Of a DNA stretch of 63,987 nt, positions 46,491 through 52,430 are shown piece by piece. Under the pieces are notes generated by a model that did no database searches, was not told where the DNA came from, and saw only the letters and a list, made by a program, of their open reading frames with translations. The DNA is taken from assembly GCF_000765215.1 (NCBI RefSeq), contig NZ_JPJE01000022.1, positions 1-63,987 of the forward strand, written 5' to 3'. The DNA is from Eubacterium sp. ER2. GTDB taxonomy: Bacteria > Bacillota > Clostridia > Lachnospirales > Lachnospiraceae. Both the position numbers and the translations under genes were made by a program. Position 1 is the stretch's first letter; each line of letters opens with the position of its first letter.

Positions 46491-48236
46491 TTAAGCATCT
46501 GCTCGAACGAGTGCTTCCTGTAATTCAGGGTCGCACGCATAAATATAAATTCCTTCGACACCTCGTGTCATCAATATACGAACTTCATGCCGAAGGAGTA
46601 TCTCTCCGAATTTTTGTCTACTGCCATCTGATAATGTTCGATTTTGCACTGCTTTTCTATTACAGCTTTCTGCTGGATCAAAAACTATTTTCCCTTTACG
46701 ATATTTGACTGACGGTCCCAAAATGACACCTGCATAGTTTAAATCAAATCCCTGTATCGTAAAAGTTGACCCAATCTCGTCTATCGTCTGAGGCTGTTCG
46801 GCCCAAGCCAGACTTTTATTCTTCCTTTTTGTATTTTTATCCAAATCTTTTTCTAATTCGTAATTCCATGGTTTATGCCATTTTCCAATAATTACTTCCC
46901 AGTATTTTAACAGTCTTTTTTTCGCTACGGGCTTAGGATTATAGCTCCAATCATATGTTGCAATCATTCTGGATAATTTGTGATCATCATTCTTGGTCTT
47001 TTCTTTTATCGCCTTTTCCAATTGAAAGGGATCATCAAATATTTTAATTTCGTATCCCCCCTTTTCTTTAGGGATTGGATGGATTTCCTGCTTCTTAGTC
47101 AAACAATCAATCCAGTCTATGATTTCTTCAGACGCCTTGATACGAAGTTGCTTCGTTAATACAAAATAATTCCCTTGTTTTTTTGATAAAGCCCGGAAAT
47201 ATTCTAATTTTTCAAATTCCCAGTATTGTTCCGTAGTTAATATTTGATTTTCATCAAACATCACAACCGTCACCTTTGCTCGACACATAATGTCCTGCAG
47301 CTGATTCCGTCCCTTATAAGCCTGCTTACCCTGAGTCAATAACAGATGGGCCTCGTCAATAAAAGCAACATCTATCGGTGCCTCCGAAGTGTGATGATTG
47401 ATAAACCGCGTTGGTTTCCAAATAATCTCCCCATATTTGTCTTCTAAACCTAGCTTTAACGCAATCTGCTTATAAACTCTTATTTGCTCATCATGATTGA
47501 CAATCAAACAACATTGGAGTGATTTGTCTCCTTTTTCTTCCGCATAAGAATAGATGTCATAAAAAGTGCTGCTGTTAAGAACTGTTTTACCTGTTCCCGC
47601 TTCCCCCTCAATAAATATCAGCTGATTTTCCATCTCAGTATCCAATGCATTGAATACCCTGTCAATTATTTTATCTTTAATCTGCTCCTGTTCTCCTGTC
47701 AATCTATGAAGTGGTGAGGCTTTAAAAACAGCAGAATCTTTTATAACACTCTCCTGGGGAAACAGCTCTTTATTGTCTCTTCTGAGTTTTTTCCAAATCC
47801 TTTGAAAAATACTATCCATTTCAAAATCAGGATAATATTTTCTTTGTGGATTCCCACGCAAATTATGTATCTTGCGAACATGTTCCGAACTCATGAGATA
47901 CAGCATTAATCGGTTCTCAATATCTAATGTTAATGACTTATTAAAGTGCTCATGACCAATAATATAGAGATTGGCATTATTTTTACTCAATGAATCGTTC
48001 CATTTTTCCTTCATACCAGTTGATCCAAAATGTTGTCTTGTTCTTTGAATAATATTATTGGTCTCACCTATATAAACGTCATAATCATCTGTATCTTTCC
48101 AGCTATGAATATAAACCGTAGGAAACTCTAAAAGAATTTCCTTGACTTTCTGCAAATCTTTAACATCCAGTTTTCTCTCTAACTCTTCTAATCCTTGTAT
48201 ACTGTCATTGATTTTTTCTACTATAGGATATTTCAT
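46491..48236 (-). CDS. GIY-YIG nuclease-DUF2075 P-loop helicase fusion
   Basis: A 581-residue two-domain protein. Residues 41-110 form a GIY-YIG nuclease: VYI at 41-43, VYIGET at 54-59, the catalytic arginine in QRTRQHF and the metal-binding Glu in DIENRL (107). From about 205 follows a DUF2075/Schlafen-like ATPase with Walker A GEAGTGKT (211-218), FIDEAH (292-297) and a C-terminal LMTRGVEGIYIYACD. Nuclease plus helicase suggests attack on or remodelling of nucleic acid, but the biological role is not known. It is the third gene of a probable AT-rich three-gene operon. Confidence 0.85.
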   Translation of the reverse strand: MKYPIVEKINDSIQGLEELERKLDVKDLQKVKEILLEFPTVYIHSWKDTDDYDVYIGETNNIIQRTRQHFGSTGMKEKWNDSLSKNNANLYIIGHEHFNKSLTLDIENRLMLYLMSSEHVRKIHNLRGNPQRKYYPDFEMDSIFQRIWKKLRRDNKELFPQESVIKDSAVFKASPLHRLTGEQEQIKDKIIDRVFNALDTEMENQLIFIEGEAGTGKTVLNSSTFYDIYSYAEEKGDKSLQCCLIVNHDEQIRVYKQIALKLGLEDKYGEIIWKPTRFINHHTSEAPIDVAFIDEAHLLLTQGKQAYKGRNQLQDIMCRAKVTVVMFDENQILTTEQYWEFEKLEYFRALSKKQGNYFVLTKQLRIKASEEIIDWIDCLTKKQEIHPIPKEKGGYEIKIFDDPFQLEKAIKEKTKNDDHKLSRMIATYDWSYNPKPVAKKRLLKYWEVIIGKWHKPWNYELEKDLDKNTKRKNKSLAWAEQPQTIDEIGSTFTIQGFDLNYAGVILGPSVKYRKGKIVFDPAESCNRKAVQNRTLSDGSRQKFGEILLRHEVRILMTRGVEGIYIYACDPELQEALVRADA

Positions 48237-48315: not shown

Positions 48316-48648
48316 TCACAGCTCCGTATACTTTTCTTTATGTCCGTACGCTTTTTCTACCGGATACTTCTCCGCATTCTTCTTTATCTTTTCCTGTATA
48401 ATCTCATCCATATCCAGCCCACAGGTATCCGCCATCAGAATGCAGTAATTCAACACATCCGCAAGCTCTTCCCTGATCTTATCTTTTTTCTCCTCACACC
48501 TGACATCTTCTGCGCTCCACTGAAAAACCTCTAACAGCTCTGCCGCCTCCAGACTAATGGAGATTGCCAGATCCTTCGGATTGTGAAATTGCTTCCAGTT
48601 ACGCTCGTCTCTGAATTTTAATACCTGCTCAATTGTTTCCTTTGTCAT
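48316..48648 (-). CDS. MazG-like nucleotide pyrophosphohydrolase
   Basis: A 110-residue all-alpha NTP pyrophosphatase of the MazG/dCTPase type. It has the ISLEAAELLEVFQW and EELADVLNYCILMADTCGLD motifs, whose acidic residues bind Mg2+. Such enzymes hydrolyse (d)NTPs to NMP and pyrophosphate. The start overlaps the end of the DUF2075 gene upstream by 20 bases, so the genes are coupled; GIY-YIG-DUF2075 follows after 79 bases. In this context nucleotide depletion or signal removal is possible but unproven. Confidence 0.85.
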   Translation of the reverse strand: MTKETIEQVLKFRDERNWKQFHNPKDLAISISLEAAELLEVFQWSAEDVRCEEKKDKIREELADVLNYCILMADTCGLDMDEIIQEKIKKNAEKYPVEKAYGHKEKYTEL

Positions 48649-50282
48649 CTTTAACCCTCGCTTTTTGCATGCCCAGACATTTTTTCAGATAAGCAGACAA
48701 ACGTTGATCTGTACAATATACATAACAACCTTTCATACCCCGTGTCATCAGTGTCCGATAAGTATTTTTTATGATTTCATCTGCTTCTTTCTCTGCCAGA
48801 TACGGATTTTCTTTATATAATTTTTTAATTCCCTTCAACGACTGATCTGTTCTGGCTCGTCTTGTAAAGTCTGTAACAATCCTTCCATTTTCATATCGCA
48901 TATCATCTCCAATAATGACTCCGACATAATCAAATTCCAACCCTTGAGACGTATGTATACATCCCGCCTCATGGACGGAATCTTCATCTATAGCATAAGT
49001 AGTTGTATTTTTCAAATTCCAGCTAATTTCAAAATCTCCGATTTTTATATCGTATACAGATGAATCGTTCACTCCTTCTTTCTTCCAATCCCAACAGTAT
49101 CCCGCCAAAATCCTTGCCCTGTTATGCGATGACCGATTTCTTTCAATGATCATCTTCTGCATTTCCACAGGTGAATCAAGTATTCTAATATCAAAATCAA
49201 TATCAACCATATCAAAATTGGCAGTATCACGAATTTCCAATATATGATCCAGCCATGCCAGATATCCGTCAGACCCGTTACACCTAAATTGAGATATTAA
49301 TTCCATTTCCGTAATCTGAGCATTTTCTTGGTCAGCCCATTTTCTTATCTCTCCTACACTTCCTATATCCTGCAGCGTGACTCTTTGTCTTTCATCAATA
49401 AAAAATACACTACATTTCGCTGCATGAATAATCTCTTTAATCTGGTTTTCACCCATGTTATGAAACATCCCGGATTTTTTATTCAAACGATGGGCTTCAT
49501 CAACAAGAACTGTGTCAACCATATTATTTTCTGCTTCTGTATAAATTCCCGAGCCCTTGAACATATTATCAACGCTGCTTTTCCTTATACTGCCCTTTAG
49601 CTTTTTTCGATACACATTTCTTGGTGCGGAATTTTTAGATACATATTGACAGAACTGATCCTCTTTCGTCAATTCAGCAAGAAGATTCACTGCTACTACG
49701 CTCTTTCCTGTTCCAGGACCACCTTTTACGATCACGACCCGCTTATTGTCATCTTTGGCAGAAAGCCTTGCTTCATCCAAAATCTCCTCATAAACAACCT
49801 TCTGTTCATCCAGCATAATAAATTCACGATTGCCTTTCAGCATTTTGGCAATAGAGTCCTGCAAACTTTTTGATGGCTTAATACGTCCCGAATCAATCTT
49901 ATAGATCAATTCTTTCTTATCACCAAGCCGAATACTCTTCTTAATGAAATCTCTCAGTTTTGTAACTTCACCGCGTGTAAATGCCGGGGCATTTTCCAGA
50001 TATATTTCATACTGTTTGGCGTCAATTGGATCCTGCTCATGCCGTCTGTAATTGTGTAAATAGGCACATGGGAAGATGGAAATCATGCCCTCTTGCACAG
50101 AAGCATTGTAATCGCTGATCAGCATAGCATATGACCATGCCTGGTATGAAGGATGAACAACTTGCCTCACAGCATTTCCGGTATAAGTCTGTACCAGGCC
50201 ATCCCGCCCCGGAACCGCTTCCAGTTCATCCCACTGTTTCAGTTCAATCAAGACAACATTGGCATCTCCTTTTTTTCCATAA

Positions 50283-50290
50283 CCAGATAT
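50283..50290. repeat. Target-site duplication, left copy
   Basis: CCAGATAT directly before the left inverted repeat; the same eight bases follow the right repeat at 52016-52023. Confidence 0.95.
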
Positions 50291-50315
50291 GGCTATGTCA
50301 CAACAAACAGTTGAT
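50291..50315 (+). repeat. Left inverted repeat of the lnu(C) element
   Basis: Matches the complement of 51991-52015 at 22 of 25 positions, differing at positions 5, 18 and 19. Confidence 0.92.
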
Positions 50316-50330
50316 AAATAGCCATTTTTA

Positions 50331-50354
50331 TAGGGGAGTATCAGAACTCCCCTA
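50331..50354 (-). terminator. Hairpin downstream of lnu(C)
   Basis: TAGGGGAGT (50331-50339) pairs with ACTCCCCTA (50346-50354); only a short AT-rich tail follows on the minus strand, so it is a weak terminator or a structured site such as part of a transfer origin. Confidence 0.5.
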
Positions 50355-50371
50355 CAAACTGTTATTTGCAG

Positions 50372-50866
50372 TTATCTATACTCATTTGGAATTTCGATAT
50401 GAAGTGTCTCACACAATAACTTCACATCATGTGCATCATTTTCATCAAACTCGTATCCCAGATGGAACATTACTTGACTATATGGTTCAATACAGGAAAC
50501 CTCTATTTCCTCAATTCTTCCTTTACCCGAAAAAGTTTCTACCGGAAAACAATCCCCATCATAAAGAATTTCACCTTCGTCCGTATATTCAAAACAATGC
50601 AAATCAATAATTCTGTTTTTCAAATCTTCCCATACAGTATGGTTCAATGTTGTATATTCCATCTTAATCTCATAAAAGCCATTAGCTTTCATTATTTCTA
50701 TAAAGTTCTGATAATCGTTCTTTTCTACAAAAATGTCAATATCATTATGGGCTCTTGACTGATATCCAAGAAGAGCATCTACACCCCAGCCACCATCAAG
50801 AAAGACTTTAATCTCCGCATCTATTGCAAATTGAAGAATCTGTTTTACATCTGTTATATTGACCAT
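50372..50866 (-). CDS. lnu(C): Lincosamide nucleotidyltransferase, Lnu(C)-type
   Basis: Inactivates lincomycin and clindamycin by adding a nucleotide. The start at 50866 (MVNITDVKQIL) has GGAG eight bases upstream and gives 164 residues, the length I recall for Lnu(C). The nucleotidyltransferase core is seen as FLDGGWGVDALLG followed by HNDIDIFVEK, whose two Asp bind metal, and later HLGYEFDENDAHDVK. It lies 23 bases after the transposase gene and probably uses a promoter inside it or outside the element. Allele assignment needs alignment; resistance is predicted, not shown. Confidence 0.9.
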   Translation of the reverse strand: MVNITDVKQILQFAIDAEIKVFLDGGWGVDALLGYQSRAHNDIDIFVEKNDYQNFIEIMKANGFYEIKMEYTTLNHTVWEDLKNRIIDLHCFEYTDEGEILYDGDCFPVETFSGKGRIEEIEVSCIEPYSQVMFHLGYEFDENDAHDVKLLCETLHIEIPNEYR

Positions 50867-50889
50867 CTTATCATCTCCACAAATTCTGA

Positions 50890-51927
50890 TTAGGCGACCA
50901 GAGGAACTGCTGGTCTGTTTGATAAATCTCTGCATTTAGCAGTTTTCAATGTTGCCAAAACGAAAGTTAAGAAGATGTTCCTTTTCTCCATGTCGCTTTC
51001 TTTGGCGTAATTTACAAGGTTATTCCACACAAGATAGTTGTTCAGATACTTGGTAGAAACACCGTTAAAGCCACGCATAAACCTCTTTAGCTGGCTATGG
51101 TAGCTATTGATATGTTGGATATTATAAATGCCTTTCTTGGCTTTGCCAGTCTTTAACTGCACAAGGTCAATGCCATTGGCATTTGTAAATCTCACATAGG
51201 AGTTCATCTTGTCCGTAACAAGAGTGGAATTGGTCTTAATCCTACCATCATAAATATGATGTAAATCTCTTGTAGAAACTCTACCAGTATTCGTAATCTT
51301 GGAGATAGACAAGCCATTCCTATTAACCGCACAAGGAACACATACCTTTTCTTGGGACAAGCCTCTGATATGTGTAGAATGACCACGCTTATGAGCCTTG
51401 CGTGGCATAGCAAATGTCTTACTCTTGCTATGATTGCCCTTGTACGAGATGGCGAAAAAAGTTTCGTCAGCCTCAATAATGCCGTCAAGGGTAACATCGT
51501 CTGCCATATTCTGAAGTGCATCCAAAATCTTGTGTCTCCAAAGGAATGCGGTGTTTCTGTGAATCCCACAAGCAACAGCAGTCTTACGAATGGATAAGCC
51601 ATTCATCATACAATCAATGTACTGCTCCCACACGGACAAGTCTTTTCTTGTACCAGACACAATGGAGTTCGTAGCAATCACGAAGGACTTGCCACAATCC
51701 TTACATACATATCGCTGTGTGCCATCTTTACGATGACCATTGCGAACCACATGGATACAGCCACAAAGAGGGCATACACGACCATTTGCAAAGCGTTCCT
51801 TTGCTACGAAATCTTCAATATTCAAAGACTTTACAAAGGCAGGACTTAAAAGCATTGTTTTAAGGCTTTCCTGCTCTGCGACAGTCAACTTACCGATAAT
51901 ATCTAATGCGTCTTTGATAGTAGGCAT
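50890..51927 (-). CDS. IS1595-family transposase
   Basis: A 345-residue DDE-type transposase of the IS1595 (ISXO2-like) group. An N-terminal zinc ribbon (CPLC at 52-55, CKDC at 75-78) precedes a helix-turn-helix (SIRKTAVACGIHRNTAFLWRHK). The catalytic domain shows IIEADETFF (Asp154), LVTDKMNSY and NSYHSQLKRFMRGFNGVSTKYLNNYL. The start at 51927 has GGAGGT eight bases upstream. The frame is intact, so the element may still be active. Confidence 0.93.
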   Translation of the reverse strand: MPTIKDALDIIGKLTVAEQESLKTMLLSPAFVKSLNIEDFVAKERFANGRVCPLCGCIHVVRNGHRKDGTQRYVCKDCGKSFVIATNSIVSGTRKDLSVWEQYIDCMMNGLSIRKTAVACGIHRNTAFLWRHKILDALQNMADDVTLDGIIEADETFFAISYKGNHSKSKTFAMPRKAHKRGHSTHIRGLSQEKVCVPCAVNRNGLSISKITNTGRVSTRDLHHIYDGRIKTNSTLVTDKMNSYVRFTNANGIDLVQLKTGKAKKGIYNIQHINSYHSQLKRFMRGFNGVSTKYLNNYLVWNNLVNYAKESDMEKRNIFLTFVLATLKTAKCRDLSNRPAVPLVA

Positions 51928-51990
51928 ATCCAATTACCTCCTTCGGTGGTACTGTTTCTTACTATTATTATACGCTATTTCTCGTCAAAA

Positions 51991-52015
51991 ATCAACCATT
52001 TGTTGTGACAGAGCC
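51991..52015 (-). repeat. Right inverted repeat of the lnu(C) element
   Basis: On the minus strand it begins GGCTCTGTCACAACAAATGG, mirroring the left end. Confidence 0.92.
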
Positions 52016-52023
52016 CCAGATAT
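52016..52023. repeat. Target-site duplication, right copy
   Basis: CCAGATAT, identical to 50283-50290. Confidence 0.95.
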
Positions 52024-52430
52024 TAAAAAATCAACACGTTTCGATGTCTGGGGAATATTATATTCAATAGCAATCCCTGCATCCGACGGAATATCTTGAT
52101 CATTCAGAACCTTATACATATATTCCATGGAATTTTCCCATGCACGAAATTCATTTTTTGCCGTGTGGCGATGCATTCTTTCATAAATATTGTTTTCAAT
52201 TTCCACAGCAATTGTATCCTGCTCTACGCTTGTTAAGAAATTGTCTTTTGTTCCTTCATAAATCAGCATATGGTCACCCCTGCCATAGATTGTTTAATAT
52301 ATGTTCTATTCTATCATATTTACATTTTGTTGTCGCCTGCACAACCCTCTTACTATTGCTCATTTTTAAATTTTTCTAATTCTAACAGATATTTACCAAA
52401 ATCCGACCTGCCGTTCCCGCCACACTGAGA

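Follow-up and report, generated by a model that had tools for sequence, protein, structure and literature searches.

A complete MTnSag1 copy in Eubacterium sp. ER2 whose lnu(C) gene may be a movable cassette

MTnSag1, or tISSag10, is described from Streptococcus agalactiae as an element of 1.7 kb with 25-bp repeats that makes 8-bp duplications at AT-rich targets, forms a circular intermediate, and is mobilized by Tn916 via an oriT in lnu(C) (PMC5704250). The same source describes tISCpe8 of Clostridium perfringens, which likewise joins an IS1595-family transposase to a lincosamide resistance gene, but to another one, lnu(P) (PMC5704250), and MTnSag1 has been reported from many hosts and plasmids (PMC8845278 and PMC6233522). 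We analyzed a stretch of 63,987 nucleotides from Eubacterium sp. ER2 (contig NZ_JPJE01000022.1, positions 1 to 63,987 of the forward strand), referred to below as the window. Taking the evidence jointly, we consider it very probable that the window holds a complete MTnSag1, probably still active, which arrived fairly recently in a Schlafen-type helicase gene and whose lnu(C) most likely entered as a cassette. The element itself is ordinary and already known, and this copy adds one host and one insertion site; the candidate novelty may lie in the cargo rather than the element.

Sequence reading and a repeat search delimited a 1,725-bp unit, from 50291 to 52015, bounded by 25-nt inverted arms and identical 8-bp flanks. 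The arms (50291 to 50315 on the lnu(C) side and 51991 to 52015 on the tnpA side) are complementary at 22 of 25 positions (88%), leaving three mismatches, and the flanks are the left and right copies of the target-site duplication CCAGATAT, at 50283 to 50290 and 52016 to 52023. The unit carries two genes on the minus strand. The ISSag10 transposase gene (50890 to 51927) encodes an intact IS1595-family protein of 345 aa, matching NF033547 with 196.5 bits (cut-off 75) and PF12762 with 50.6 bits (cut-off 27), and lnu(C) (50372 to 50866) encodes a lincosamide nucleotidyltransferase of 164 aa, matching NF000141 linco_LnuC with 380.1 bits (cut-off 300). Just 3′ of lnu(C), also on the minus strand, lies a hairpin of the form GGGGAGT-loop-ACTCCCC (50327 to 50358), terminator-like by eye, which is part of the ISSag10 backbone. 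A sequence-only reading of the window had already claimed the span of the unit, its imperfect inverted repeats with three mismatches, the identical flanking copies, the two-gene content, and an intact transposase; each of these held up, the coordinates of span and repeats exactly and both genes above curated cut-offs. The unit is not a product of chance, because 36 other full-length copies share both ends and all 36 have the 345-aa transposase. The window's genome assembly contains one MTnSag1 copy. Judging from their families, the DDE transposase would act at the 25-bp ends and make the 8-bp duplications, and lnu(C), the passenger, should inactivate lincomycin by nucleotidylation.

The interrupted gene, on the minus strand, is split into an N-terminal piece of 82 aa (52024 to 52269) and a C-terminal piece of 554 aa (48629 to 50290) with a Schlafen group 3 DNA/RNA helicase domain (PF09848). 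Neither piece contains a stop, and in all 11 relatives compared the two, when aligned separately, match adjoining stretches of a homologue that is not interrupted at this point. A fairly recent insertion is supported, since the target gene is uninterrupted in relatives and the element is highly identical to copies in other genomes. Recency had also been proposed in the sequence-only reading, partly from the unmutated duplication; the duplication is indeed identical, but on its own it is weak evidence of age. The opposite view, an old insertion carried by the whole species, we regard as very improbable: nothing was found in its favor in the one genome of the species compared, and the identical duplications, the open halves of the target gene, and the 99.94% identity to copies in other genomes all speak against it. 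Beside the interrupted gene, both on the minus strand, are a second Schlafen-type helicase gene (46491 to 48236), whose GIY-YIG match is weak and slightly below cut-off, and a gene of MazG-like type (48316 to 48648). These genes may form a small defence-like cluster; PADLOC returned weak AbiO-like and candidate-defence matches only, to the interrupted gene and its neighbor.

A search of genome contigs with the Lnu(C) protein found 133 relatives, from which we kept 80 lnu(C)-like loci: 36 with full-length MTnSag1, 40 without MTnSag1 beyond the gene and its edges, and 4 with one MTnSag1 end. The 36 full-length copies, some of which come from the same genome (e.g., L045 and L046; L016, L022, and L028), are 99.25 to 99.94% identical to the window element, and the best matches are eight copies in other genomes with a single mismatch (99.94%). 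Perfect 8-bp duplications, of 24 distinct sequences, flank 29 of the 36; five copies lie at a contig end and two have unlike flanks. Seventeen plasmid records match, and 10 of them hold the whole element at 99.7% identity or more, with Streptococcus, Cetobacterium, Glaesserella, Ligilactobacillus, and Enterococcus as plasmid hosts and annotations of ISSag10 transposase and lnu(C); the transposase is 100% identical in nine plasmid records, and a Streptococcus salivarius plasmid copy (NZ_CP018188), annotated as ISSag10 plus lnu(C), is 99.9% identical to the window element. Phage records gave seven matches, two of them holding the whole element at 99.3%. By sequence comparison the window element is MTnSag1/ISSag10 (type sequence AY928180), the comparison having been made with annotated copies and the published description. 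This near identity across the whole unit bears out the likeness to MTnSag1 that had been suggested in the sequence-only reading. The whole element was absent from all 194 relatives searched, and G148 has both ends on separate contigs. Calling the window copy a link in the spread of lincosamide resistance, as had been done, is fair, but the copy is not special in this respect, the element being already known from many hosts and plasmids.

Some of the other copies have features of their own. Those in L042, L038, and L186, from streptococci and their phages, measure 1,735 bp, 10 bp longer, at ∼99.3% identity. Six copies (L021, L034, L048, L049, L050, and L085) share the duplication TAATGAAA, and therefore a larger MTnSag1-bearing region seems to have moved; a phosphorylase-like stretch lies near the element in L021, L034, L048, L050, and L085, and not in L049.

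Various genes are found in one fixed slot of the ISSag10 backbone, which lies after the tnpA stop codon and before the terminal hairpin. In the window the 5′ junction of this slot, S1 (50873 to 50900, minus strand), consists of an outer arm containing the tnpA stop codon, the spacer TCAGAA, and TTTGTGGAGAT; the 3′ junction, S2 (50348 to 50375, minus strand), reads ATAACTGCAAA-TAACAG-TTTGTAGGGGA and looks like a decayed site. The sole position at which the window copy differs from all 36 full-length copies, base 50888, falls in the 6-nt spacer of the upstream site, which may be chance. Campylobacter coli pAR-0411 (L182) carries a GNAT gene in the same backbone (99.4% identity over 1,144 bp and 97.4% over the last 78 bp), Campylobacter jejuni pGMI16-002 (L183) has a CPT/AAA-kinase-like gene after the transposase (backbone 95.4%; 5′ junction only), and viral contig L195 encloses a lipoprotein-like gene (backbone 95.9% over 145 bp and 89.7% over the last 78 bp). 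All three depart from MTnSag1 at or just after GGTCGCCTAATYAGAATTT and, where visible, rejoin it at CAG(T/C)TT(G/A)TAGGGGAG, and the hairpin is kept behind the other cargoes in L182 and L195. In G338, seen on the 5′ side only, what remains of an ISSag10-like tnpA (88% over 175 bp) precedes a perfect ACAAA-NNN-GAATTTG site, after which comes a different gene of 169 aa. The slot was not seen in ISCaje5, ISCaje6, the Ligilactobacillus salivarius IS1595 element, or the 82% relative L194, and no cargo-free ISSag10 occurred in the 398 phylum genomes drawn, the window's own included; among these, one other genome, G648, has two close copies, both with lnu(C).

Stand-alone copies of the GNAT gene, with GAATTTG...CAAAT as their boundary, occur in G112 (99.1% over 460 bp) and on plasmids of Enterococcus faecalis, Kurthia, and Campylobacter. 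The beginning of the kinase-like gene known from C. jejuni comes after the GNAT unit in E. faecalis, and two Campylobacter plasmids, L221 and L222, have a single site separating the GNAT gene from that beginning. One fixed slot thus holds different genes, some of which are found elsewhere bounded by the same near-palindromic site, and because of this we think that the ISSag10 backbone most likely acquired lnu(C) as a gene cassette of ∼0.54 kb. The sequence-only reading, although supported in its account of the MTnSag1 copy, had not considered lnu(C) as an exchangeable cassette.

The site itself was read from the edges of stand-alone lnu(C) loci. It has the near-palindromic form ACAAA-6 nt-TTTGT, appearing upstream as ACAAA-6 nt-TTTGY just before the ribosome-binding site and downstream as RCAAA-6 nt-TTTGTC just after the stop. 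We could score 31 of the 40 stand-alone loci on both flanks, nine being dropped (truncated gene, contig edge, or too distant), and used as background 246 unrelated ORFs from MTnSag1-bearing loci. Both ends were present with at most two mismatches in 21 of 31 loci versus 0 of 246 ORFs, with at most three in 25 versus 0, and with at most four in 29 versus 14. The contrast is only descriptive, given that the motif came from these same, mutually related loci. An lnu(C) of 495 nt, identical base for base, is carried by seven loci (L053 to L059), each from a different species; of the six for which both flanks are available, L056 and L058 have their context in common, and all other pairs are 15 to 40% identical over 60 nt on each side. 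These copies of the identical gene differ outside GAATTTG...CAAATT. The observations suggest that lnu(C) is a movable cassette which, like other genes of the slot, also travels without the element.

A plainer explanation is that this is simply MTnSag1, that ACAAA-6-TTTGT is leader or terminator-side sequence of small resistance genes, and that cargo was swapped by illegitimate or short-homology recombination. Promoter-like sequence near the sites is consistent with it: after redundant stand-alone loci had been removed by hand, a perfect TATAAT lay within 45 nt upstream of the site in 10 of 28 loci (versus 1.9% of 158 further-upstream windows and 4.9% of shuffles), and TATAAT with one mismatch in 18 of 28 (versus 20% and 34%, respectively). 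S1 itself falls after the promoter and before the ribosome-binding site, so the sites occupy the positions of expression signals. The same explanation would also fit the results on recombinases and target symmetry. In most of 12 stretches inspected no tyrosine-recombinase gene was found nearby, and no recombinase shared among the loci was found; across 23 loci a test for a locus-specific target dyad showed no excess of symmetry (4.87 matches within versus 4.91 between; permutation p 0.59). It accounts poorly for the finding that unrelated genes (lnu(C), GNAT, nucleotidyltransferase, phosphorylase, and others) have the same site pair, for the divergence of copies of one identical gene outside GAATTTG...CAAATT, and for the rarity of such pairs among background ORFs at up to three mismatches. 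We consider this explanation unlikely, if far from negligible.

Other genes lie at the same sites. The pattern CAAATTCCARTTTRTCGAAC, with at most two mismatches, occurs at 29 places in 11 of the 14 genomes with stand-alone lnu(C), some of these being the lnu(C) sites themselves, versus none for the reversed control; when 194 relatives are searched together with the window's own genome (195 in all), it occurs at 54 places in 35 genomes, versus three for the control, and some of the 54, inside unrelated ORFs, are probably chance. The window's own genome has no match at this threshold. Genes found between two sites include those for a nucleotidyltransferase, a phosphorylase, an RlmA-type methyltransferase, a SnoaL-like protein, and glyoxalase-like proteins, and a streptomycin adenylyltransferase gene ends at such a site; no close plasmid copies of the RlmA and phosphorylase units were found. 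Twenty-two ORFs have their end no more than 40 nt ahead of a pattern-selected site, and on the upstream side, which was not used for selection, a partner site is present with at most two mismatches in 7 and at most three in 10, versus 3 and 20 of the 246 background ORFs. One of the seven is a divergent lnu-like gene; with it excluded the counts are 6 of 21 versus 3 of 246 (Fisher p 8e-6), a comparison in which the foreground is favored by taking the best of several start codons. L234 and L073 diverge near the sites. The pair L234 and L235 was rejected as evidence, its flank being shared beyond the site.

No clean empty cassette site was found in L056 versus L060, in relatives of G106, or in relatives of G199, and the search around G199 led to a second platform. 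In this Oscillospiraceae MAG and related genomes, a dispersed stretch contains a slot that is framed by a promoter-like sequence and a hairpin resembling a terminator (both judged by eye) and that holds four alternative cargoes: lnu(C) in G199, an AadA_C-domain gene in G225, a DUF6796 gene in G224, and GNAT in G243, where the 3′ end of the same GNAT unit is present and the contig ends. In G106, the stretch beside the site-bounded gene recurs within the genome at 70 to 81% identity (C19, C25, C26, C27, and C29) and is possibly a dispersed repeat.

Given these boundaries, shared cargo, two slots, and promoter proximity, we infer that cargo exchange is site-specific and integron-like, without an integron integrase. 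We put at about even the chances that an undescribed class of mobile cassettes exists in gut Firmicutes and in Campylobacter, Enterococcus, and Kurthia plasmids. Its small genes would be bounded by sites of about 28 bp, of the form (GTTCG)ACAAA-6 nt-TTTGT(CGAAC), and a recombinase acting in trans would swap them between promoter-served slots. The predicted cargo range includes lnu(C), GNAT, nucleotidyltransferase, RlmA-type methyltransferase, phosphorylase, and CPT/AAA-kinase-like genes, among others. MTnSag1 would be one platform-plus-cassette combination, and the platform in Oscillospiraceae-related genomes would alternate lnu(C), the same GNAT, the AadA_C-domain gene, and the DUF6796 gene. 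Tyrosine-recombinase sites such as dif have arms of ∼11 nt around a 6-nt centre, and because the sites described here share that layout, our leading guess, held at well below even confidence, is that an Xer-like enzyme of the host, or a tyrosine recombinase carried by an element, acts in trans. A tyrosine-recombinase gene ends within ∼80 bp of the site in three lnu(C) loci, G204 (L123), G208 (L140), and G205 (L062, 84-aa end only).

We also weighed ordinary integron cassettes whose integron has been lost. The cargo is alike, consisting of single small resistance-type genes, insertion is behind a promoter, and the single site between two genes in L221 and L222 would fit. The attC consensus has the order RYYYAAC...GTTRRRY, whereas our site, as read by eye, runs GTT..AAC from the outside in on both strands; and the integron integrase model TIGR02249 scored above cut-off in 0 of 14 genomes, with sub-cut-off matches in all 14 and in all 14 control genomes alike. 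An integron origin is not supported, and we judge it very unlikely.

If the cassette reading is true, it would explain why the same few small resistance genes appear in unrelated gut species and in carriers without a transposon of their own, and it would amount to integron-like exchange without an integron integrase. The interest of the window copy is the hint it gives about the origin of its passenger lnu(C). COG0645, which we take to be a kinase family, appears under another name in the table of a survey of horizontal gene transfer. That 2023 survey lists, in its Table 4, 15 genes common to Gram-positive and Gram-negative gut bacteria, including RlmA(II) methyltransferase twice, streptomycin adenylyltransferase, uridine phosphorylase, ANT(9), the COG0645 gene, ISSag10 transposase, and LnuC (PMC10782964). 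Several of the listed names correspond to cargo that lies at or between the sites described here, and the available text around Table 4 makes no mention of cassettes (PMC10782964). In the literature covered, including the available parts of PMC5704250, PMC6233522, PMC10782964, PMC7471000, and PMC8845278, we found no published description of such cassettes, and with preprints and most subscription papers outside that scope the absence of one is unproven.

Compared with known systems, the stand-alone genes resemble mobile insertion cassettes of the IS231-MIC type, in which a gene lies between short inverted repeats without a transposase. They differ in that no partner transposase was found and no target duplication was established. 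With integron gene cassettes they share a slot behind a promoter, single genes, resistance-type cargo, and the occurrence of the same cassette in different carriers, and they differ in the lack of an above-cut-off integrase in 14 genomes and in a site that by reading is not attC-like. The pdif (XerC/XerD) modules of Acinetobacter plasmids have ∼11-nt arms around a 6-nt centre flanking resistance genes, and their two-arm layout is similar to the one here; the arm sequence GTTCGACAAA/TTTGTCGAAC is not known as a dif sequence and differs from Firmicute dif. The element itself matches MTnSag1/tISSag10, with its ∼1.7 kb, IS1595-family DDE transposase plus lnu(C), 25-bp repeats, and 8-bp duplications, from which the window copy differs in occupying a new site, a Schlafen-type helicase gene, and in having at position 50888 a base unlike that of the 36 compared copies.
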